14,921 nt of DNA from assembly GCA_003598085.1 (NCBI GenBank), contig QZKU01000036.1, forward strand, positions 1 through 14,921, given 5' to 3'. Shown in pieces: positions 2,306-14,151 of the stretch. A model generated the notes under the pieces. That model made no database searches and was not told the origin of the DNA. It saw nothing but the letters and a program-made list of their open reading frames with translations. Each line of letters opens with the position of its first letter. The first letter of the stretch is position 1. The stretch is from Candidatus Abyssobacteria bacterium SURF_5 (GTDB lineage Bacteria > Abyssobacteria > SURF-5). The position numbers and the translations under genes were made by a program.

Positions 2306-5300
2306 TCATTCTTGCTCAAAACCATGACTCTTGAACTTCAGGGCGCGGCAGTTTTCCGTAACAGTCCGGATGGTGTCATCGGGTACGCCGTCGGGAACAT
2401 CGGCGTGTATTTCCAAATTCACTTCTACGTTGGAGCCGAGCAAACTAGTCAGATGCTGAACCACTTCCTCGGCGATTCGGCTGGCGTCCCGGCTTAGTCT
2501 GTTAGGATCGAGAGATGCTGAGCCATGAAACCGCCGATATTGTGGAGGTGGCTCGACAGTTGTGGTACCTGTAGAATCTCCTCCAGATTCGCCACCCGGT
2601 CCACTTTCGCCAAGCCTTTCACTCACTGTGGTAGTTGTTCGCGCTTCTGCCGATTCCGCCTCCATTTGAGCTGCCGCAACATCAGGCTTTACAATCAGAC
2701 TCTGCCCATCGGGCAGAACACGAACACCAGGTCCGGTCTGAAGCCCAACATATCTCTTTCTTTGCTCGTCCCATCTCTCAGCGTAAGCGAATGTCTCCGA
2801 CTGCCATGTTAACAGTGAGACTCCGTCGCGAATGGCCAAAAGTAGTACCTCATCATCTGCCAGACGTGGCAAGTAGAGATAAGTGGCAAAGTCCTCTGCC
2901 AGTTGTCTTACTCCCACATTATCCCCCCTCCAAAGGGGGACGCGGTCCAATTCGTGGCGGAGACGGGCACCACCCAACTGCACCATCAGCAGTTCGTCGT
3001 TCTTCAGTTTCTTTGAAGCCCGAACAGCTAAAGCCTCGTGGCCCTGCTGTCGAATTTCAAGCCATTCAAGTGAGCCCTTGGGGTCGGGCTGACTCGGTAC
3101 CAGAAGCCACTGATATGCCTCAGGAATTCGGGCGTCCACTGTCTCGTCTGCGCCTCTCGACTTTGTTTCAGCTTGTCTAGTCTGAAATGAATCGAGGTTC
3201 AGGGTTTCTCGATCTTCCCAGATCGATTTCCAGGCTATATACTGCCGAACCGCTTGTTCCAGATCGCGAAGTCGACTGCTATCAGCTGCGAGAAAAACCA
3301 AAGTGTTTCGGTACGTTCGGGGACTGGTGCCGCGGGAATTGAGTACATCACTGCTCGTCTCAAGAGCAGGACTGGCCTTCTCTTTCGCTGTGTGCGGACG
3401 TTCCGGGCTCAATATCACAAGTCTGGTTTCTCGCTCATCAGGTATATCGCCACTCAAGGCACAAGCATGGACTTTTCCAAATTCTCCGCGCGATCTGGCG
3501 GCATTGCGAAGACGGCGGCTGATCTCATCGTATACATCATCATCGCGTACTTGAGTAGCACGGTCCTGCGCAAGCTTGGCGACTGTCGGTTGAGTAGAGT
3601 ACCAGTATCTTCTTCCGTCGACGTAAAGATATGTTGCTCGGTCAGTGAGTCGCCTGAGAGCATCCCCGAAAATCGCCGCGCTCTCGCCTGCCTGCACGCA
3701 TCCAAGCTTCACTTGCCGGTCATCAATACCCCGATTGGCGGCCCGCTGTACGGGAGCGGAACCCATGTAGATAGTTCGTGCGACGCGCCTGCAAGCTGAA
3801 TAACGGCCAAGATTCGGATTTTCCCGATCAAGCGTAAGCGGTAGCGAAAGCTGCCCATCCACGTCTTTTTCTATAACCGGCACCCACTGATCCTCAAGGT
3901 AGCGAGTAAGTTCGAACTGGACTCGCGGATCCTCCACGGGCACATTTGCCGGCATAATCAGAAGATTATTATCCTGTCGTTCCCAGAGGGAATGTATGAC
4001 AGCAGCCATGAGACGGAGGACTCCACGAGTACGCTGAAACTTGTCCAATGTAGACCAATCGTTATAGAGACGATCAAAAAGCTCTGGATGAATTGGATAT
4101 GCCATCTTGATACGTCGCTCGTAGCTGGCTTCCCTGCATTCAGAGGGAAACTCTTGTTGCTGTCCGGCATACATGTCGACATAAGCGCGCGCGACCTGAT
4201 CAAGATCAATGAACTTTGATGGTTCCGTTATCGGCTGGAATAACCGGCGACGCACTATCTCAAATCCCTCATCCGGACTCGCAGGGCGCCAGGAAGCTTC
4301 CACCCGGCCAATTGCATTCTTCAATCTTGTCAGGGCAATGCGCCCGCGCTCTCCACCAACTTCAATATCTGAAACGACTGCTCGACCATCACGTGGACTG
4401 GGGCTTTCGGATGCTGGAATACTTACGACCACGAGAGTCTGCTTGGCTGCCTTGGCGCTTTCCGTCAGGGCCTGAGCAAAGGTAAACTGTGTATCAAATG
4501 TTCCCGCCGGCAAGCCTCCATTGTCATGGAGTTGGCGCGCAAAGGCCACCCACTCATCTATGAGAATCAGGCACGGCGAATACTGATTAAAGAGTTCCCG
4601 AAGTGAGTCACCCGGATTTGTTGCTGTTTCATCTGCCTCTTTAACAATTCCATACGCCTCTTTCCCGCCGAGTTGCCAAGCGATTTCTCCCCACATAGTC
4701 CTGATCGTAGTTCCGTCAGGTTTCTTATGAGCTTTGCCTGGGGACAACCTTGTGCCCACAATGACGGCCCGGTGGATTTTACGGGGAATTTTGCTATCAA
4801 TGTCCTTCAGCAGATCTTCAATACCGGCCAAATCCGCCGCCGAGACGCCAGAGAAAAGATGATAAAGCGCCAGCATTGAATGCGTCTTGCCGCCGCCGAA
4901 GTTTGTCTGTAATTCAACGACTGGATCGCCGCCTTTGCCTGTGAGACGCTGGACCGCCCGCGTCAGCAAGTGTTTCAATCCCTCTGTAAGAAAGGTACGC
5001 CGAAAAAATTCGGTCGGGTCTTTATACTCATCCGAACCTTCTTTCAGGTAAACCTGCCAGAGGTCTGCAGCAAATTCCGCCTGCTGATAACCACCCGATG
5101 CTACATCCGGATGTGGAGTCACAACTTCCCGCCATGGCTTCAAATTAGTTGCGGGACGACCTTCAACCGGCGCAACTGCCGCCCGGCGAGCATCATAGCG
5201 CCGCTGTTCCTCAAAACGGAGGCGTAGGAGTTCCATTTTCTGTTTTTCCAGCTTTGCCGCCTCAGGTGCGGAAACAGCATTCAGAAGACGCCCAATGGTA

Positions 5301-5620
5301 TCGAGTGCGCGGTAAGCGTCATCGGTGCTGAATGCCTCCATGTGCGCCCACCTGTTCCGGATGTCTCTGACTTCGCTTATAAGGCTTCTCTCCGCATGTC
5401 CTAAGGTCTTTTTGAAAACATTATTCCAATGGTCCCACATCATGGTAAGAGTTATTTGCGGATCGTTCCGGTTTTGCTTTTTATCGCCGAAATACTGCGT
5501 CTCAATCTGTTCCCATTTCCCCTTATGAAAAACCTTCATTTCTCGTTCCACAAAAGGCGCAAGCCCCTTGTTGAGGAGTTCAAGTCCTTCACCAATCCGA
5601 TCACGATTTGTCTTTGCCAC
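2306..5620 (-). CDS. DUF499 (COG1483) AAA+ ATPase with N-terminal Swt1-type HEPN domain, 1104 aa
   Basis: Residues 1-115 form a helical domain ending in RNRWAH (88-93), followed by FSTDDAYRALDTIGRLL. This matches the Swt1-family HEPN domain and keeps the R-x4-H motif of HEPN RNases. A P-loop reads NFGGGKTHS (Lys245, Thr246) and a Walker B strand LILIDEW (Asp355, Glu356), both typical of DUF499. The C-terminus, around VTENCRALKFKSHGFE, is also family-typical, so the protein looks full length. The start is GTG at 5620, with GGAG seven bases upstream. It follows the DUF1156 methylase by 36 nt, the usual partner order for COG1743/COG1483 pairs. I infer an ATP-driven sensor or remodeller working with the methylase and helicase, possibly with RNase output from HEPN. 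A proline/glycine/threonine-rich linker near residues 1000-1030 precedes the C-terminal domain. Family assignment is firm; the role is inferred. Confidence 0.93.
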   Translation of the reverse strand: MAKTNRDRIGEGLELLNKGLAPFVEREMKVFHKGKWEQIETQYFGDKKQNRNDPQITLTMMWDHWNNVFKKTLGHAERSLISEVRDIRNRWAHMEAFSTDDAYRALDTIGRLLNAVSAPEAAKLEKQKMELLRLRFEEQRRYDARRAAVAPVEGRPATNLKPWREVVTPHPDVASGGYQQAEFAADLWQVYLKEGSDEYKDPTEFFRRTFLTEGLKHLLTRAVQRLTGKGGDPVVELQTNFGGGKTHSMLALYHLFSGVSAADLAGIEDLLKDIDSKIPRKIHRAVIVGTRLSPGKAHKKPDGTTIRTMWGEIAWQLGGKEAYGIVKEADETATNPGDSLRELFNQYSPCLILIDEWVAFARQLHDNGGLPAGTFDTQFTFAQALTESAKAAKQTLVVVSIPASESPSPRDGRAVVSDIEVGGERGRIALTRLKNAIGRVEASWRPASPDEGFEIVRRRLFQPITEPSKFIDLDQVARAYVDMYAGQQQEFPSECREASYERRIKMAYPIHPELFDRLYNDWSTLDKFQRTRGVLRLMAAVIHSLWERQDNNLLIMPANVPVEDPRVQFELTRYLEDQWVPVIEKDVDGQLSLPLTLDRENPNLGRYSACRRVARTIYMGSAPVQRAANRGIDDRQVKLGCVQAGESAAIFGDALRRLTDRATYLYVDGRRYWYSTQPTVAKLAQDRATQVRDDDVYDEISRRLRNAARSRGEFGKVHACALSGDIPDERETRLVILSPERPHTAKEKASPALETSSDVLNSRGTSPRTYRNTLVFLAADSSRLRDLEQAVRQYIAWKSIWEDRETLNLDSFQTRQAETKSRGADETVDARIPEAYQWLLVPSQPDPKGSLEWLEIRQQGHEALAVRASKKLKNDELLMVQLGGARLRHELDRVPLWRGDNVGVRQLAEDFATYLYLPRLADDEVLLLAIRDGVSLLTWQSETFAYAERWDEQRKRYVGLQTGPGVRVLPDGQSLIVKPDVAAAQMEAESAEARTTTTVSERLGESGPGGESGGDSTGTTTVEPPPQYRRFHGSASLDPNRLSRDASRIAEEVVQHLTSLLGSNVEVNLEIHADVPDGVPDDTIRTVTENCRALKFKSHGFEQE

Positions 5621-5656
5621 TGTCTCGCTCCAAATTAATAGCGACTATCGATCATA

Positions 5657-8377
5657 TCAGATGAGCTTACCTTGTTCAGTCGGTCTGGCTGTAGTCGCGA
5701 GTTTTACAATTTCCGGCCAGGCGACCACAAGGCCATTGTACGACAAAGCTTCCTTCGACCAACTATTCTTCTCGCAAATTTGGAACAGGCGGTAAGATAA
5801 TTCTCTGGCTGCCTCGCCCGCACCACTACCGAGCTTGCTAAGGAGCTCGGCTGCGCCACTCTCACCGGATTTTTCGAGAGAATATATTAGATGTTGAGTT
5901 ATCTCCCATACGGTCAAACGTTTATCCTTCGCAGGGTCCCAATCTTCTGGCAGTTCGTTCCGATCCAACAGCCGAACCTTTCCTCCACGGGAGAAAACCA
6001 CCCCCGCCTCCACGAGCCCGTTCACGGCTGTGTTCTTTGCTTTCGAAAGAGTCTCTGCATCCCCGTAAAGACCCTCTTTCATTCCATGCTGTTCGAACCA
6101 TGCGAGACACCATCGAGTATCCGTATCAAATTCTGCTTCTTGTTCGGAAAGCACTTCGTCAAGCGTTTGATTTATAAGGGAGAGTGCTGTTCGAACAGTC
6201 ATCCTTCCTCTTGACTCTATAACTTTGGAATATTGAGAAAATATGGCCATGCCAGGTCCAATCGAGGCTTGAGCAAGGTCCACTGGTGCCACATTCCCCT
6301 GTTGGAGATGCTTGAGCGCCGATGGTAGTTTACGTTTAAGTTCATTAAGTAGCTCCCGGCGACTACAATGAGGAGCTTCGAGAGAGCGCTTCCTAGCGAC
6401 AAGGACTATGGCCGAAGCCAATGCGTTGGCATCTTTCGCTACCGCTCGTGCTTTTTTTGTTGTCCGAACTGGCCAGGTTCCAGTAATTTGGAAACCTGCC
6501 TCAACAAGACCCTCAAGCATGGTCTCCCAACCAGTTGAAACACGGTTGCCTCCCTCCGGAGATTCACTACTTTCTTCCTCTTCCTCCTGCTTAAACGCGT
6601 AGTATATCGTGCAGGGGATTGACGGCTCAGCAGTCTGCAAAATTTCAGCAAATACATTTTGGAATCCATGCCGAAAGTGCTTTTCAGCAAGTTCTAATGA
6701 ACCGTGACGTGTGGGAGAGGCGATAAGCTCAGGACCTTTAGGAGTTAAGAGAGTTGCAAATGTATGTGGATCTATACTCTTCAATATCCGCCGCAGCCAG
6801 ACATAAAAGAAGTCAGCAAGGTCAGCATAGCTTATGTTGTCGTAGTAAGGAGGGTCGGTGGAAACTACAGGTGCGCTGCCAAAAGAAGGAGTTTCTTGCC
6901 GGGCATCGGCTTGTTTTACTCTAGCGGGATGAGCCTCGGTTGGAAGAGATTCAAGCGAAGAAGCAACCCATCCAGCCACAGCATCATAAGCCAGCTTTCC
7001 CTCAATGGGATTCGCCTCGCAAAAATCCCAAGCCATAGGAATCGCTTGACGTTGAAACAGGTGGCTCACGTTCTCATTTGTTGGGTTCCATGTCGTTAGA
7101 TTACTATGGTAATCTGTCATTCGAGAGAGCGCGCATGCCAGGTAAAAGGTTACTGCCTCGGCGTAAGCAGTATTCCCTTTCGCGTGTTCCAGGATGTGTT
7201 TTCGAGCATCGAGAATTATGTCGCAAAGTATGTCAAGTGCAACCAGTTGCCTTGGAGTGAACAAATCACCAATATTCTCCATGCCATAGACAGGAGGTTG
7301 AAAATTCCGGTGTTTCTTCGGCATCTCACAATCAGGTCGCCACTTTGGAGATGCTTGCCTTGCGGCTGAAATATGCTGATCACTGGGCGCATGGTAGAAT
7401 TTTCCTCGGTTACCCTCTGTAACAATTGCCATTAATCTGGTTCCCATATTTCCCTGCTTCGCTTGTTTGCGCACATAAGGAAATGGCATAGGATTCTTAC
7501 TCAGAAGGCAGGTCGCGCCTTTGCGGGAAACGGTTCCTTTGACCTCGGGGACTATCCCATTGGCGATATCAAACTCGAAATTGTTTCCCTTTCGATTAAC
7601 CTTCGGGAACACCCATACGTGTCGTTTTTTCCCGGCAAGTTTGAACGATCTAACCAAAGGAACCGCGGCGCCATTGCGCGATGGATCAGGACTTGGCACT
7701 GTCCTCGTCCAAAGCCAGGCAACTACAACATTGCCATCCGGCCCTTTGGGGTAGAGTTTCGACAATCGCTTCTGGGCTTCCTGGCAGACCCACTTCCCGT
7801 ACCAGCGAATGTCATCAGCAAGGCCAGTAGCACCTTTCCAGACAGTGCTGTGAAGAAGATTTTGATCATTTTGCGGATGGACCGGCGGGCTTCCGGAAAA
7901 GGTTGATGGAAACTCAAGAAGTCCCCGCTGGATAGTGACTGCCACAGGATTCAGGTCACTGCTCGTGACTTTAAGGCCAAGTCGCTGAGCTTCAAGTGGA
8001 ATACTTGCTCGTCCAGCAAACATATCCCAAAATTCGGGTGCCTTACCCTTGAACTGTTTGAGGATTATTTCTCTTGCCTTTTCTATAAGTTTCTCGTCAG
8101 TAGTTGCCTCCCAAGTTGCTAATTTAGCGACAAAATCAAGAAGCTCTCTACGTGCCCGTTGAGCTTCTTCGGTTTCAAGACCATTGCCAGGGTCATCAAT
8201 GAGTTGGGCGAACAGGATAGCGCGTGATACGGAGAGCGGAGTCCGTGCCCACCAGTTGTGAATGGCCCGCGGGTGGCCTTTAAGAAATGGATTTTCCGTT
8301 TCCGGCTTTGATCCTTCATTGATTGCCGCAAGCGGTAGCGCTACTTCAATAAGCTTTTTCGAGAAAGTATCAGTCAT
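5657..8377 (-). CDS. DUF1156 (COG1743) N6-adenine DNA methylase, 906 aa
   Basis: The N-terminal DUF1156 signature is clear: ALPLAAINEGS (13-23) and GHPRAIHNWWARTPLSVSRA (34-53). SAM-binding motif I is DMFAGRASIPLEA (118-130), with DLNPVA following (141-146). Catalytic motif IV is STDPPYYDN (506-514), typical of adenine-N6 amino-methyltransferases, in the motif I then IV order. The expected product is m6A in DNA, probably marking host DNA. Two features are odd. The residues where this family usually has zinc-ribbon CxxC pairs read PSPDPSRNG (228-236) and TCLLSKN (289-295), leaving a single cysteine. Also, the last glycine of the FxGxG loop is Ala124. The start ATG overlaps the preceding gene by 8 nt, so translation is likely coupled. 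Length fits full-length family members. Whether it is catalytically active cannot be decided from sequence. Confidence 0.93.
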   Translation of the reverse strand: MTDTFSKKLIEVALPLAAINEGSKPETENPFLKGHPRAIHNWWARTPLSVSRAILFAQLIDDPGNGLETEEAQRARRELLDFVAKLATWEATTDEKLIEKAREIILKQFKGKAPEFWDMFAGRASIPLEAQRLGLKVTSSDLNPVAVTIQRGLLEFPSTFSGSPPVHPQNDQNLLHSTVWKGATGLADDIRWYGKWVCQEAQKRLSKLYPKGPDGNVVVAWLWTRTVPSPDPSRNGAAVPLVRSFKLAGKKRHVWVFPKVNRKGNNFEFDIANGIVPEVKGTVSRKGATCLLSKNPMPFPYVRKQAKQGNMGTRLMAIVTEGNRGKFYHAPSDQHISAARQASPKWRPDCEMPKKHRNFQPPVYGMENIGDLFTPRQLVALDILCDIILDARKHILEHAKGNTAYAEAVTFYLACALSRMTDYHSNLTTWNPTNENVSHLFQRQAIPMAWDFCEANPIEGKLAYDAVAGWVASSLESLPTEAHPARVKQADARQETPSFGSAPVVSTDPPYYDNISYADLADFFYVWLRRILKSIDPHTFATLLTPKGPELIASPTRHGSLELAEKHFRHGFQNVFAEILQTAEPSIPCTIYYAFKQEEEEESSESPEGGNRVSTGWETMLEGLVEAGFQITGTWPVRTTKKARAVAKDANALASAIVLVARKRSLEAPHCSRRELLNELKRKLPSALKHLQQGNVAPVDLAQASIGPGMAIFSQYSKVIESRGRMTVRTALSLINQTLDEVLSEQEAEFDTDTRWCLAWFEQHGMKEGLYGDAETLSKAKNTAVNGLVEAGVVFSRGGKVRLLDRNELPEDWDPAKDKRLTVWEITQHLIYSLEKSGESGAAELLSKLGSGAGEAARELSYRLFQICEKNSWSKEALSYNGLVVAWPEIVKLATTARPTEQGKLI

Positions 8378-8843
8378 TCGTTAATGCCTCCTCGGGCGCC
8401 CATAGTGGCGGCACTCCAGGCAAAACCATTTCATCTATATATGAACATACCGCTGAGGCGGCTCCTCTAGGGGATTTGCAGGGCAAGCCGCCCATGGCGC
8501 GAAGAATATTTCTAACGACTTCATCTTCATTGACTAAACGCGGGAACATCTCCAGATTTATGAATTTTTCCCAGTCTTCCCGTGTTTCGGTGTCATGATC
8601 TTGGAATAGAGGCAATTGCGGCGTATACCTTTCGGCTAAATAGCGTCCGCATATTGCTTCCCAAACTGAGACCAAAGGCGTCATATCTGTAGCTTCCAAA
8701 TCCTGCAGCTTACCTATGGATTCACTTCTGATACAAAGTAATTCTGCAGAACGCAGAAATCGGCGGCGGCATTTCATGAAAAGAGAATAGAGAGCTTGGC
8801 CGGCCTGTTTTTGCTGGAGCCGCGCCAGTTCCTCAACAGTCAT
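8370..8843 (-). CDS. Unrecognised small protein between TOPRIM and methylase genes, 157 aa
   Basis: I do not recognise a family. The ATG at 8843 is chosen over the adjacent in-frame TTG at 8846 because AGAGGA lies seven bases before it. The N-terminal 60 residues look helical and basic (MKCRRRFLRSAELL). A proline-containing stretch, TPQLPLFQDHD, lies around residues 74-84, and a second helical part ends in LPGVPPLWAPEEAL. No catalytic motif, zinc site, signal peptide or membrane segment is evident. The gene starts 13 nt after the TOPRIM stop and its stop overlaps the methylase start by 8 nt, so it is embedded in the operon and probably made alongside the methylase. A structural adaptor, specificity factor or inhibitor would fit that position, but nothing in the sequence chooses among these. 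Confidence 0.78.
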   Translation of the reverse strand: MTVEELARLQQKQAGQALYSLFMKCRRRFLRSAELLCIRSESIGKLQDLEATDMTPLVSVWEAICGRYLAERYTPQLPLFQDHDTETREDWEKFINLEMFPRLVNEDEVVRNILRAMGGLPCKSPRGAASAVCSYIDEMVLPGVPPLWAPEEALTND

Positions 8844-8850
8844 CAAAATT

Positions 8851-8856
8851 TCCTCT
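8851..8856 (-). promoter_or_regulatory. Ribosome binding site for the 157-aa gene
   Basis: AGAGGA sits seven bases before the ATG at 8843 and lies in the short gap just before the TOPRIM stop codon region (8857-8859). It supports the ATG rather than the adjoining TTG as the start. Confidence 0.5.
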
Positions 8857-9468
8857 TTAACTCAGCAAACGACGCGCCCAGTTAACGAAAGCAATGGCAG
8901 CGGGACAATCATGAAGAAGATATTTCTTTGTTAAAGCTTCGCCCATACGAGTGCCGGGCTCTTCTTGCCAGGCTAGCCACGTATGGATTTCCGCTTTCGG
9001 CAAATATGTTGGTTTAAATAGCCTATGGTCGTCTGGTATTTCACTGACGTCATTCTTTGCCCGCGGCCAGAGGACATCTCCTTGCGGTATAAGATCCGCT
9101 ACGAAATCCTCGACCTTTCCTCTTTCTCTGTTATCGGGCATTACCCAGATTCCTACTCTTTTATCTTCTGCGACATCAATAATTGTTCCCTCTCCTACGG
9201 GGGCAACCGGAGCTTGAATGAACGGATATTGATCAGCCACTATGTGTAGCACCTTTTGCCAATTCCTTTTACAGTCTTCATCCGCATCAATGATTATACC
9301 AAGGTTTTGAAGGTCAGTTGCCTGCAATTCCTCGCCCAATGTATCACAGAGGTTCGTAAATCCTTGTTTATCTTTATAGTCGAAAAGGTAGCCAAGATTA
9401 TACTGAATAAGAAGATTTCTCACCACATGGCGATCATTTACACCTTCAAAAATCAGTCTGTTTGCCAT
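8857..9468 (-). CDS. DUF3226 TOPRIM-domain protein, 203 aa
   Basis: The first strand and loop, LIFEGVNDRHVV, place Glu8 where TOPRIM domains hold the catalytic glutamate. A hydrophobic strand then ends in IIIDADED, giving the metal-binding DxD (Asp61, Asp63). This layout and the ~200-residue length match DUF3226, a stand-alone TOPRIM family. TOPRIM domains of OLD nucleases cut DNA, whereas in PARIS (AriB) the TOPRIM protein acts as the effector released by its ATPase partner. The start ATG overlaps the stop of the upstream ATPase gene by one base (TAATG), so the two are translationally coupled and very likely form one complex. I infer the nuclease half of a split OLD-type pair. A tRNA, DNA or other target cannot be read from sequence. 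The C-terminus (about residues 165-203) has no recognised motif. Confidence 0.88.
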   Translation of the reverse strand: MANRLIFEGVNDRHVVRNLLIQYNLGYLFDYKDKQGFTNLCDTLGEELQATDLQNLGIIIDADEDCKRNWQKVLHIVADQYPFIQAPVAPVGEGTIIDVAEDKRVGIWVMPDNRERGKVEDFVADLIPQGDVLWPRAKNDVSEIPDDHRLFKPTYLPKAEIHTWLAWQEEPGTRMGEALTKKYLLHDCPAAIAFVNWARRLLS

Positions 9469-10598
9469 TATCTTATCTCTATATTTTCACCCAGAACAGT
9501 ATTCAGACGGTCTTCATCGAAAACAGCTGATCTGTATTCATCGTTCACAAACTCGACCCGATTTAAAACCCCGTCAATTGAAGTATCTTCCCGCGCAGCC
9601 GCATAAAACGCCTTTATGCATTCATAGCTATGGGAACTGGCAAATACCTGCACATTCAAGCGACGGGCAACTTTCAGAATATACTTCCAAAGAGATGGGA
9701 GTATGGAAAAATGAAGCCCATTTTCGATCTCATCCACCAGCAAAATTCCGTTCTGTGAATTCACTAGAGCCATTCCGATTCCAAAAAGTCGATTCATACC
9801 ATCACCAAGGCTTCGCAATGGAACGGGGGTGGCCGATCTCTCCGTTTTAAGGCGGACAGTAGGATAACCTGAGGAATTTGTACTTAGCACTGCGAAATCG
9901 TCCACCTCTGGTGATATAATCCGCATTGAATCGATAACATCCCGCTCGAGTTCTGTAAGTACCACTTGCCGCCAGAGATTCTCCATCTCCCTCGGGGCGA
10001 GCCCATTTGGACCAACGAAGACTGAATTAATAGTCAGTTCCAACATTGAGCGGGGCTGGAGTTCCCATCGCCGAGCGTGAACTTCAAAGTCCTCGTCGAG
10101 CATCATCATCCGCTGCAAAGAACCAATTTTAACAATCAGGGCCGGAATATCTTCCTCGTAAAGGTCATGGAATTCTGTTGGTCCTTCTGCCGAAGAGACT
10201 GACTGTTCTGCAGCGGCTTTCTTGCGATGGACACGTGCAATAGTAATTCTAAGACTGCTATCCGGCGCATTAATTGGACCAATTTCAATCGTGGAATCAA
10301 ATTGACCGATTTTTGGACGGTCGTGAAAGAGAGAACAGACCGATGGTTCTCCACCACCTCGAATTCCGCATTCGCCCTGAGGATACTCGATTGCTTCGTC
10401 ATGCGCTTGTAATATCTCCCGGAGTATTCTCGGGGAGCCCAAATTGGCATAAAGCCAAAGAGCTTCAAGAATCGTTGACTTGCCGACATTGTTTTTCCCG
10501 ACAAAAAGATTCACCTGTCCGAGGCGTTCCACGACCAGATGGTCAAACGTTCGAAACTGGCGGATTTCCAGATTTTCTAACTTTATAGGAGAAGCCAT
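9468..10598 (-). CDS. OLD/AAA_15-type ABC ATPase, 376 aa
   Basis: The N-terminus, LENLEIRQFRTFDHLVVERL, is the usual first strand pair of RecF/OLD-like ATPases. It is followed by Walker A VGKNNVGKST (33-42). The ABC signature region is RSLGDGMNRLF (262-272), Walker B is GILLVDEIENGLH (284-296) with Glu289/Glu291-type acids, and the switch histidine lies in FASSHSYECI (319-328). The middle part lacks the long coiled coil of SMC/RecN proteins, as expected for the AAA_15/AAA_21 group. There is no C-terminal TOPRIM domain: the chain ends at residue 376, and that activity is encoded by the next gene. AAGGGGA lies about eight bases before the ATG. The gene sits 34 nt after the helicase gene. I infer a sensor ATPase that holds or activates the TOPRIM partner, in the manner of PARIS AriA or a split GajA. 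The family is certain; the trigger is unknown. Confidence 0.92.
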   Translation of the reverse strand: MASPIKLENLEIRQFRTFDHLVVERLGQVNLFVGKNNVGKSTILEALWLYANLGSPRILREILQAHDEAIEYPQGECGIRGGGEPSVCSLFHDRPKIGQFDSTIEIGPINAPDSSLRITIARVHRKKAAAEQSVSSAEGPTEFHDLYEEDIPALIVKIGSLQRMMMLDEDFEVHARRWELQPRSMLELTINSVFVGPNGLAPREMENLWRQVVLTELERDVIDSMRIISPEVDDFAVLSTNSSGYPTVRLKTERSATPVPLRSLGDGMNRLFGIGMALVNSQNGILLVDEIENGLHFSILPSLWKYILKVARRLNVQVFASSHSYECIKAFYAAAREDTSIDGVLNRVEFVNDEYRSAVFDEDRLNTVLGENIEIR

Positions 10599-10632: not shown

Positions 10633-13600
10633 TCAGCGTACCTGCCCACGTCGAAGTAGTTCTTTTAGATTGTAGTTCACACTGGTTACGCCAAAATCTG
10701 GCTCTTTCTGAAATGGTTGACTGACATATACAGGCGCATTTGCCCTTGCTCCTTCAACTTCGACAATAGCAAGAAGGAAATCATCAGGCTTATTAAGGGC
10801 CGTCAGAATCTCGTTTTTGGAGATAGTGACTGTAGCTGCGCCGCTGGCGCGACCCTTTACTTCAATGAAAAGCAGTTTTCCAGTATCAGGTATTGCTGAT
10901 TCCACGTCATATCCCAGATTCTGGTCGCTTACGTCGCGGGGATAGCGGCCAAGCTGGTGCTCTTTGGTGATTACTGCCTGCATCGCGATCTGTTCGATAC
11001 GTGCCGTTTCTTTAGCGAATATAGCTGGCTGCGTGTCGATTTCGCCTTTCAGGCTCCGCAGGAGATTGATTGGGGCGATTAAAGCTCCACCAATTACGAC
11101 CGGAGGCAATGGCGAAAGCCGCCGTTCCTGCTCCAAATCGTCCATGCGCTTCTTTAGCCGGGCCTCCAGTTCGTTAGCGCGCTCACGCGCCTTGCCGGAA
11201 TTGATTCTCGAGTTTGACTTTCCGACATTTTCCTGGGCCTTCAACTCTTCGGCTCGATGGTCCCAGTAGTTGATTTCCTTCGTGAGGCGGTCTTTCACTG
11301 CGGCCATAGTTTTTGCAATTAGTTCCTCGCGAAACCGCTTCACTTCGCCAAGGTGCTTTTGAACGAGATGTTCTATGGCAAAGGAAACTGCTTTATCTTC
11401 CACGTTTTCCTTGAGCCAGGAATCAGCGATGTTTGATCTGAGCAGCCTTTGTTCTTCTTCAGTGGCGGGACGGTAATCAAGATAAGGCGCATAGCCGGCC
11501 ATCCGGGTACGGCCGTGCGGCTGCATTTCGACAAACTGCAATTGGCGCGATGCAATGCGACGATTTCCCTGACGGTCTGAGCGGCCGTCCTGTATTGAAT
11601 GTTCAATGTAAAAAAGAGCACGCACGTCTTCGTCGCCTGTTTCTTTCTCATCAACGAGAATCGAACCTCTACGCAACAGGTCGCGGTATCTTTCGAGGAT
11701 GATATCTATTGTGGAATCCAGGAGCGGATGTCCCGGACAAACAAAGGCGGCCAGCGGCTTCCCGGGAACGCTTATCTCTTCCTTATGAAAGGTGATTCGT
11801 TCGTAACGGGTAAGAACAGGCGCCCCTGTTCCTATCTGCCGATCCCGGTTCCGAATGGTTGCGGGCACATGAGTGATCTCATATCGACGGGGCTCTCGTT
11901 CGCGAATTGTCCCGCCCAAAAGGCGAAAAGCTTCAATAAAGAAAGAGGCTATAAAATGAGGCTGCAATCGCCGAGCATCGGCTCGCTCCATGTCCTCTTT
12001 GATACGACGAACGGCCGCGGCATCCAGACATTCCCGCGACAACGCACAATCTGCCAACAACTGCTCTAGGCGGCTGCGGTCCACAACCTGGTCTACCACA
12101 CGGAAGAGTTTCTCGCGCACTTCCGGCTGTTCACCATAGCGAATCGCCTCAATGAGAAGGTCCCGAAGCGGCTTGTCCTGAAAGAGCTTCCCAAGAACAT
12201 CAAAAACTCTCCCCCCCAACGCCTTCCTCTGCTCATCTATTTTTTTTAGGAGTCGATGATAAACCTCACCCTCCCGTGTTTCCTCTGCAACCAGGTTCCA
12301 CAGATGGCAAACCTCCGTCTGACCGATGCGGTGGATTCGACCAAAGCGCTGCTCAATTCGGTTTGGGTTCCATGGCAGGTCGTAATTAACCATCAGATGC
12401 GCCCTCTGCAGGTTTATTCCCTCACCTGCCGCATCTGTCGCTACCAGGATTTGCACATCCTTGTCCTGAGTAAATTTCTCTTGGGTATTCCTGCGTTCCT
12501 CACGGCCCATCCCACCGTGGATAGACACAATTGCTTCAGGACGACCCAGCAACCCCGCAAGGCGGTCTGATAGATAATTCAACGTGTCGCGATGTTCCGT
12601 AAAGAGGATGAGCTTACGCCTATATCCCTGGGCATCGAACATCTCCGAATTGTTCTGCAGAAGCCTGGAAAGTTCCTCCCATTTCTTATCTAACTGGCTT
12701 TTGCGCACTTTCAGCGCCAAATCCTCGAGATGCTTCAGAGTGGCAATTTCCGCTTCAAGTTCAGCAATGGTTCGAGCGGCGGACGCTTGATCAACAACCG
12801 CCTCCTCGGTAGTTTCAACCTCTGCGTCGGGAGCATCGTCGAGATCGTGAATATCGTCCTCGGTGATGTTTGGCAATTCCCGGGTCGTATCCAGAGGGAG
12901 CTCGGAACCGCGTTTTACAATCTTTTCTTCTCGCAAGCGTTTCTCTAACCTCTCTCGACGACGCCGTAGGGACTGAAGGATTGCCTCGGGAGAAGAAGCT
13001 AGTCGACGTTGAAGAATGGTCAAAGCAAAGCCAACAAGGTTTTTCCGGCGTCCTTCACCTTCTGCCGCCAAGCGGTCAGCACGATTCATTTCATCTCGGA
13101 CATACTCTGTAACCGCGAAATAGAGCTTTGCTTCCAAGTCCGAGAGCTTATAAGAAACCGTATTCGCCCAACGCTCGGGAAAAAGAGGTTTGCCGTCAAA
13201 TTTCAGAAGGCCCTCTTTAGTGACTCGGCGCATGAGGTCTGAAGCATTCGCTGAATGTACTCCATCACGAAACCTGCCTTCGAATCGATCCGCGTCCAGC
13301 AGCGCCATGAATAACTGGAAATCTTCTTCTTTACCATTATGCGGAGTCGCAGTCATGAGCAGGAAATGGCGAGACAGTCTTCCGAGGACACGACCGAGTT
13401 TGTACCGCTTCGTTTCTTTTATTTCACCACTGAAGAAGGACGCGTGCATCTTATGAGCTTCATCCACAACAATTACGTCCCAATCCGTCTGATTCAGTTT
13501 GGCGATAATGTCATCACTCCGGCTCATAAGATCGAGGCGGCTGACAACCAGATTCTTTTCTCCGTACGGATTGCCCGTGCGCGATGCTTCAATGGTAGCC

Positions 13601-14151
13601 CGATCGACGATCTCGAATGGCAGATGGAACTTCGAATCAAGTTCGTCCTGCCATTGTTCGGCAAGATTTCCAGGACAGCATATCAAACAGCGATGAAGGT
13701 CGCCCCGAATTATCAGTTCCTTGATGAGAAGTCCGGCCATAATGGTCTTGCCCGCGCCCGGATCATCTGCAAGAAGAAATCGGAGGGGTTGCCGGGGAAG
13801 CATAGCTTCGTATACGGCAGTTATCTGATGGGGCAATGGTTCAACAATGGATGTGTGTATGGCCAGAAGAGGGTCAAACAAGTGCGCCAGACTGATTCTG
13901 CGGGCTTCTGACGCAAGTCGAAAATGTGCGCCATCGCTGTCAAAGCTGAAAGGAGTACCTTGAGTGACTATTTCAAGAGATGATTCCTGATCCCGATATA
14001 GCAATTCGTTTGCCGGGCGTCCTGAAGCATCTTTATATGTCACCTCCACGACAGCAGAGCCGTGCCACTTCACATCAATTATAGTGACAAGGCCGTCCGG
14101 CAGGATTCCTTTGACCGATGCGCCTCTTTTTAGGTCTTCAAGCTTCGCCAT
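10633..14151 (-). CDS. SNF2-type helicase with C-terminal DUF3883 (PD-(D/E)XK-like) domain, 1172 aa
   Basis: A small N-terminal beta-rich region (1-65) precedes a full superfamily 2 engine. Walker A is ADDPGAGKTIMAG (128-140), motif Ia CCPGNLAEQW, motif II VVDEAH (228-233) and motif III LMTATPHN (265-272). Motif V is TDAAGEGINLQ and motif VI is RFGRIHRIGQ (602-611). Residues 385-500 hold a charged coiled-coil insert with an acidic stretch. The last ~105 residues match DUF3883/NOV_C: GYDVES (Asp1082) and LFIEVKG (Glu1097, Lys1099), the D and ExK of a PD-(D/E)XK-like fold. Helicases of this build occur in DISARM class 1 (DrmD) and with DUF1156/DUF499 pairs. It is the first gene of the operon, with its promoter about 120 bases upstream; the Shine-Dalgarno is weak (AAGAAC or AGGATA). 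I infer a DNA translocase bringing a nuclease-like domain to foreign DNA. The DrmD label is not claimed, as other DISARM genes are missing. Confidence 0.94.
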   Translation of the reverse strand: MAKLEDLKRGASVKGILPDGLVTIIDVKWHGSAVVEVTYKDASGRPANELLYRDQESSLEIVTQGTPFSFDSDGAHFRLASEARRISLAHLFDPLLAIHTSIVEPLPHQITAVYEAMLPRQPLRFLLADDPGAGKTIMAGLLIKELIIRGDLHRCLICCPGNLAEQWQDELDSKFHLPFEIVDRATIEASRTGNPYGEKNLVVSRLDLMSRSDDIIAKLNQTDWDVIVVDEAHKMHASFFSGEIKETKRYKLGRVLGRLSRHFLLMTATPHNGKEEDFQLFMALLDADRFEGRFRDGVHSANASDLMRRVTKEGLLKFDGKPLFPERWANTVSYKLSDLEAKLYFAVTEYVRDEMNRADRLAAEGEGRRKNLVGFALTILQRRLASSPEAILQSLRRRRERLEKRLREEKIVKRGSELPLDTTRELPNITEDDIHDLDDAPDAEVETTEEAVVDQASAARTIAELEAEIATLKHLEDLALKVRKSQLDKKWEELSRLLQNNSEMFDAQGYRRKLILFTEHRDTLNYLSDRLAGLLGRPEAIVSIHGGMGREERRNTQEKFTQDKDVQILVATDAAGEGINLQRAHLMVNYDLPWNPNRIEQRFGRIHRIGQTEVCHLWNLVAEETREGEVYHRLLKKIDEQRKALGGRVFDVLGKLFQDKPLRDLLIEAIRYGEQPEVREKLFRVVDQVVDRSRLEQLLADCALSRECLDAAAVRRIKEDMERADARRLQPHFIASFFIEAFRLLGGTIREREPRRYEITHVPATIRNRDRQIGTGAPVLTRYERITFHKEEISVPGKPLAAFVCPGHPLLDSTIDIILERYRDLLRRGSILVDEKETGDEDVRALFYIEHSIQDGRSDRQGNRRIASRQLQFVEMQPHGRTRMAGYAPYLDYRPATEEEQRLLRSNIADSWLKENVEDKAVSFAIEHLVQKHLGEVKRFREELIAKTMAAVKDRLTKEINYWDHRAEELKAQENVGKSNSRINSGKARERANELEARLKKRMDDLEQERRLSPLPPVVIGGALIAPINLLRSLKGEIDTQPAIFAKETARIEQIAMQAVITKEHQLGRYPRDVSDQNLGYDVESAIPDTGKLLFIEVKGRASGAATVTISKNEILTALNKPDDFLLAIVEVEGARANAPVYVSQPFQKEPDFGVTSVNYNLKELLRRGQVR

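Follow-up and report, generated by a model that had tools for sequence, protein, structure and literature searches.

The protein Ava_2192 was described in 2013 as a HEPN-DUF499 AAA+ protein encoded in restriction-modification (RM) operons together with a SNF2 helicase-DUF3883 protein, and was labelled active (PMC3710099). The same architecture appears in the HEPN-fused variant of the Type-1 DUF499-centred BREX-related (BR) systems, in which a DUF499 protein with an N-terminal HEPN domain accompanies a DUF1156 N6-methylase and a SNF2 helicase with a C-terminal PD-(D/E)xK domain, and HEPN fusions were reported in 1370 of 2446 Type-1 BR taxa (PMC12839542). Most HEPN domains carrying an R-x4-6-H motif are RNases, and active HEPN sites arise from dimers (PMC3710099 and general background). 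Both the HEPN-DUF499 fusion and the idea that it serves abortive infection are already published, in 2013 (PMC3710099) and 2026 (PMC12839542), and the locus described here is a new member of this family.

The Hma operon and its variable slots

The window is an entire contig of 14,921 bases, the ends of which are the window edges. Homologues of HmaA, HmaB and HmaC lie in one operon, all on the minus strand, and are matched by PADLOC with E-values of 0, 8e-298 and 0, respectively; judged by homology, they make up a complete Hma system (Type-1 DUF499 BR). The hmaA gene (10633..14151, minus strand) encodes a SNF2 helicase with a C-terminal NOV_C/DUF3883 nuclease (Pfam Helicase_C, SNF2 and NOV_C), hmaB (5657..8377, minus strand) a DUF1156 N6-adenine methyltransferase with a DPPY motif, and hmaC (2306..5620, minus strand) a protein of 1104 amino acids that joins a HEPN domain to a BrxC/DUF499-type AAA+ ATPase (Pfam HEPN_Swt1 and DUF499). 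The hmaC ORF begins with a GTG start, and a GGAG Shine-Dalgarno-like motif can be read 7 nt upstream (5628..5631, minus strand). NCBIfam models of DUF499 and DUF1156 anti-phage proteins gave matches below threshold only. The Pfam scan of the contig's nine ORFs found no DUF3780 gene, the mark of Type-2 BR systems, and no PglZ phosphatase, the criterion for BREX proper, was present among the Pfam, PADLOC and NCBIfam matches of the same nine ORFs. Scanning the window for Rfam families and tRNAs returned no matches, promoter and terminator patterns in the window showed no excess over shuffles, and the phage records searched for HmaC yielded no match.

Three cargo genes separate hmaA from hmaB (8370..10598, minus strand). 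An AAA ATPase (9468-10598, minus strand) and a DUF3226 protein (8857-9468, minus strand) correspond to the PADLOC pair PDC-M38A/B, and the third ORF (8370-8846, minus strand) encodes an orphan of 158 amino acids. The same pair occupies the hmaA-hmaB slot of locus L020, with 46% and 55% identity; L068 has a DUF3226 homologue ahead of hmaB, and L085 encodes a homologue of the orphan. In related loci (L007-L094, L187-L197) the slot between hmaA and hmaB is variable and accommodates a wide range of defence-type genes, and a second slot, between hmaB and hmaC, is used less. Families found in the gaps flanking hmaB include OLD/AbiL/PARIS-like ATPases, RloB, DUF4435, DUF3226, Schlafen, GmrSD, NYN and YhcG, and Septu embedded in Hma has already been mentioned (PMC12255303). 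Genes occupy the hmaA-hmaB gap in 45 of the 51 HEPN-bearing loci, where they vary from locus to locus, and in 6 of 7 HEPN-less loci; these figures, in which HEPN-less loci are few, give no sign of a trade-off between the HEPN domain and the cargo.

Downstream of hmaC are genes for a weakly DUF4365-like protein (1820-2266), a gamma-glutamylcyclotransferase-like (GGACT/AIG2) protein (796-1356) and an orphan of 239 amino acids (135-854). In two distant hosts a gene for a 'four helix bundle protein' lies immediately upstream of the HEPN-bearing hmaC (L008, 10503-10871; L009, 10598-10966). The genome that contains the window also encodes a second, distant DUF499 ATPase (L004, G000:C101:2497-4560), which is 29% identical, has no detected HEPN domain, and probably belongs to another BR subtype.

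The HEPN and ATPase domains of HmaC

A Swt1-type HEPN domain had been proposed for the front of the DUF499 protein in a preliminary description, and the family search bears this out. The Pfam model PF18731 (HEPN_Swt1) matches HmaC residues 12-117 (5270..5587, minus strand) over model positions 2-115 of 115 with a score of 120 bits and E=8.1e-35, above the Pfam cut-off of 27.5 bits. The R-x4-H signature RNRWAH had been placed correctly, at residues 88-93 (5342..5359, minus strand); it is the sole R-x4-H in HmaC and is present in 55 of 55 rows of the alignment A3. A lone R-x4-H is weak evidence, as such motifs arise cheaply by chance.

Structure prediction, which had been suggested as a check on this assignment, was run as an AlphaFold monomer of HmaC residues 1-170 with an alignment of 76 sequences. 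The model is all-helical (pLDDT 89.2, pTM 0.78), with helices at residues 5-44, 75-92 and 99-115 among others, and the bounds first given for the domain (5171-5620, residues 1-150) agree with the predicted helical region, in which helices run from residue 5 to 149. In the predicted monomer R88 lies near the end of the helix at 75-92 and H93 directly after it. A dyad at the end of a helix or just beyond it is the usual arrangement in HEPN domains. When 995 PDB chains were re-aligned to the model with VIA-align 2, the C-terminal domain of yeast Swt1 (4pqz) ranked first (Z 8.3, 124 residues, 3.5 A) and the Archaeoglobus HEPN protein 2hsb second (Z 6.7), with HepT/MntA, HEPN-MNT and Csm6 chains also among the matches. 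A Foldseek search of the model against the PDB gave nothing significant (best E 0.45), and searching the PDB by sequence recovered no relative for either the HEPN domain or the DUF499 protein. Since Z-scores of this size are modest for a helical domain, and given the Foldseek result, the structural evidence backs the sequence match but does not stand alone.

A flexible linker of low confidence (pLDDT < 50; residues 148-154, 5159..5179, minus strand) is predicted to connect the HEPN domain to the ATPase. Pfam DUF499 covers residues 302-803, and the best structural matches of the full-length HmaC model (pLDDT 85, pTM 0.60) are BrxC chains of Acinetobacter BREX, 9zll_D (Z 16.5) and 9zdx_C (Z 15.3), with ORC/Cdc6 proteins next. 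The BrxC-like module spans residues 161-675 (3596..5140, minus strand) and aligns to BrxC residues 1-551; because the match starts at BrxC residue 1, the HEPN domain sits directly before the BrxC-type ATPase. The Walker A motif GGGKT (residues 242-246, 4883..4897, minus strand) is invariant in A3, as are D355 and E356 of the Walker B motif CLILIDE (residues 350-356, 4553..4573, minus strand). The N-terminal AAA+ domain of BrxC forms a reversible ATP-dependent dimer, and DNA promotes higher oligomers (PMC13326643).

Conservation of the dyad and origin of the fusion

Related loci were collected as the 80 best matches to the query on genome contigs from many phyla, a set that leans towards close relatives, and all 85 HEPN-bearing relatives share R88, A92 and H93. 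A wider and less biased set, to which genomes of three other phyla were added, holds 128 HEPN-bearing HmaC proteins, including some with less than 45% core identity. In this set R88 is kept in 126 of 128 members and H93 in 127, both together in 125, and N89 in 123. Mean identity to the HmaC of the window is 53% in the HEPN region versus 67% in the ATPase, and because R88 and H93 are nearly fixed while the HEPN region varies more than the ATPase, the dyad is under selection. Family membership, the conservation pattern and the predicted fold thus all support the predicted HEPN RNase domain as real and apparently intact, with its catalytic dyad in place. The dyad is changed in three members (R to H in L113, H to R in L160, and a rearranged motif in L147), which are candidates for naturally dead HEPN domains. 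Outside the R-x4-H motif, D53 and R104 (5462-5464 and 5309-5311) are invariant in 128 of 128 proteins and E83 and D107 (5372-5374 and 5300-5302) are kept in 127, making these four residues as invariant as the dyad.

A quick tree of 106 HmaC cores, built with the HEPN columns excluded, midpoint-rooted and with SH-aLRT support only, requires two changes in HEPN presence, against 30.5 on average after shuffling. L139 accounts for one of these changes; its frame is broken or chimeric, and it was rejected as a clean loss because the frame is joined to unrelated sequence and the first 39 residues of the core are missing. In L139 (900-1300) the HmaC N-terminus is replaced by sequence that looks PIN-like by eye, reflecting either an assembly chimera or a real deletion. 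The HEPN domain is absent from a sister clade of about 950 amino acids, whose genome matches come from the Pseudomonadota draw, and from more distant DUF499 proteins, so that the tree is most simply read as a single gain; HEPN-HmaC would then be one old fusion that has been retained since. A single origin together with a fixed active site argues that the HEPN domain is not merely an optional extra.

Possible roles of the HEPN domain and relation to known systems

The preliminary description had also suggested an abortive-infection output in place of plain DNA restriction, and the latter half of this is not supported. The C-terminus of HmaA matches Pfam NOV_C (E=3e-19), and its PD-(D/E)xK catalytic residues D1082, E1097 and K1099 (10855..10908, minus strand) are invariant in 62 of 62 aligned HmaA C-termini, drawn from HEPN-bearing and HEPN-less loci alike. 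With this nuclease intact, an RNase would add to DNA cleavage and not replace it, and the possibility that HEPN is a stand-in for a missing DNA nuclease was rejected, the triad being intact in both kinds of locus.

The best explanation, which we consider moderately probable, is a complete Hma system whose HmaC carries a catalytically intact Swt1-type HEPN domain, with ATP- and DNA-driven assembly pairing the HEPN domains and activating RNA cleavage. HmaB would mark self DNA, and HmaC would load onto unmethylated invader DNA and there, by analogy with BrxC, use its ATPase domain to assemble in a manner that depends on ATP and DNA. HEPN active sites are built from two subunits, so this assembly, by bringing tethered HEPN domains into contact, would turn RNA cleavage on; HmaA would meanwhile unwind and cut DNA, and if the phage is not stopped the cell would slow or die. 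This reading draws on the HEPN family match and motif and a predicted fold for which Swt1 ranks first, on a dyad that stays fixed in the less conserved part of the protein and on its one retained origin, and on the match to BrxC, the oligomerisation of BrxC, and the intact HmaA nuclease. Counted against it are the Foldseek result, a leading Z-score that is modest for an all-helical domain, the fact that BrxC itself has no HEPN domain, and the loss of a dyad residue in 3 of 128 members. An abortive-infection output of HEPN-HmaC is plausible, and is the proposal of both PMC3710099 and PMC12839542. In a stronger version, offered only as a tentative suggestion, RNA cleavage is a regular and obligatory output of a methylation-guided system in the HEPN-bearing HmaC clade, triggered by ATP and unmethylated DNA through BrxC-like assembly that pairs the HEPN domains; the system would then be an RM-like sensor that answers foreign DNA by cutting RNA.

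Alternatively, the HEPN domain could be a PrrC-like backup suicide switch that the intact complex restrains and that fires only once a phage inactivates the DNA-cutting part, as proposed in PMC3710099 and PMC12839542. An intact HmaA nuclease beside the HEPN domain fits such an arrangement, although an optional backup would be expected to be lost or to die often, and this clade hardly ever loses the domain or its dyad; such retention does not settle the matter, as PrrC-like guards can be stable too, and we regard the switch as rather unlikely. The two schemes differ in the timing of RNA cutting, which distinguishes gated assembly from a last-resort suicide effector. It is also conceivable, but improbable, that HEPN is retained as a dimerisation or RNA-binding module with its RNase activity unused, as the eukaryotic Swt1 HEPN is thought to be inactive (PMC3710099) and the full dyad is missing from three HmaC homologues that retain the domain; set against this, R88, H93 and N89 are held nearly constant against drift in the remainder of the domain. 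Chance resemblance, with the motif arising by accident in an unrelated helical domain, would draw on the facts that R-x4-H alone is common and that Z-scores from the structural alignment of helical bundles are soft, but it is effectively refuted by the Pfam match (E=8e-35) and by conservation across many phyla, and its probability is negligible.

Gated assembly of HEPN-HmaC, the reading preferred here, can be set beside the systems already described. The locus shows no essential difference from the HEPN variant of Type-1 BR systems as presented in PMC12839542, to which it adds the AAA and DUF3226 pair and the orphan, and no difference is seen from the Ava_2192 clade of Swt1-like HEPN proteins as outlined in PMC3710099, of which it looks like a member; plasmid relatives already bear the RefSeq name 'Swt1 family HEPN domain-containing protein'. 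Relative to the Hma system of PADLOC (PMC8565338), all three proteins are matched at E<1e-290 in identical order and strand, but the PADLOC HmaC model covers residues 159-1102 only, without the HEPN domain, and HEPN-bearing Hma forms a separate HmaC clade. BREX differs in having PglZ, which is absent from the contig, and a BrxC that resembles only the ATPase part of HmaC. Neither the analysis that gives a single origin, nor the count showing a near-universal active-site dyad, nor the model of ATP/DNA-gated pairing appears in the text consulted of PMC3710099 and PMC12839542; these three points, the last being a model in which ATP/DNA-driven assembly of HmaC pairs the HEPN domains, are what the present analysis adds. 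A functional parallel exists in PrrC/EcoprrI and RloC, where a HEPN RNase is coupled to a DNA-restriction module or an ATPase, although their HEPN domain is C-terminal to an ABC ATPase and they belong to a different family from HmaC. If the gated-assembly model is true, an RM-like defence family that ranks among the most widespread couples DNA surveillance to RNA cleavage inside one ATPase, whereas PrrC uses separate proteins.
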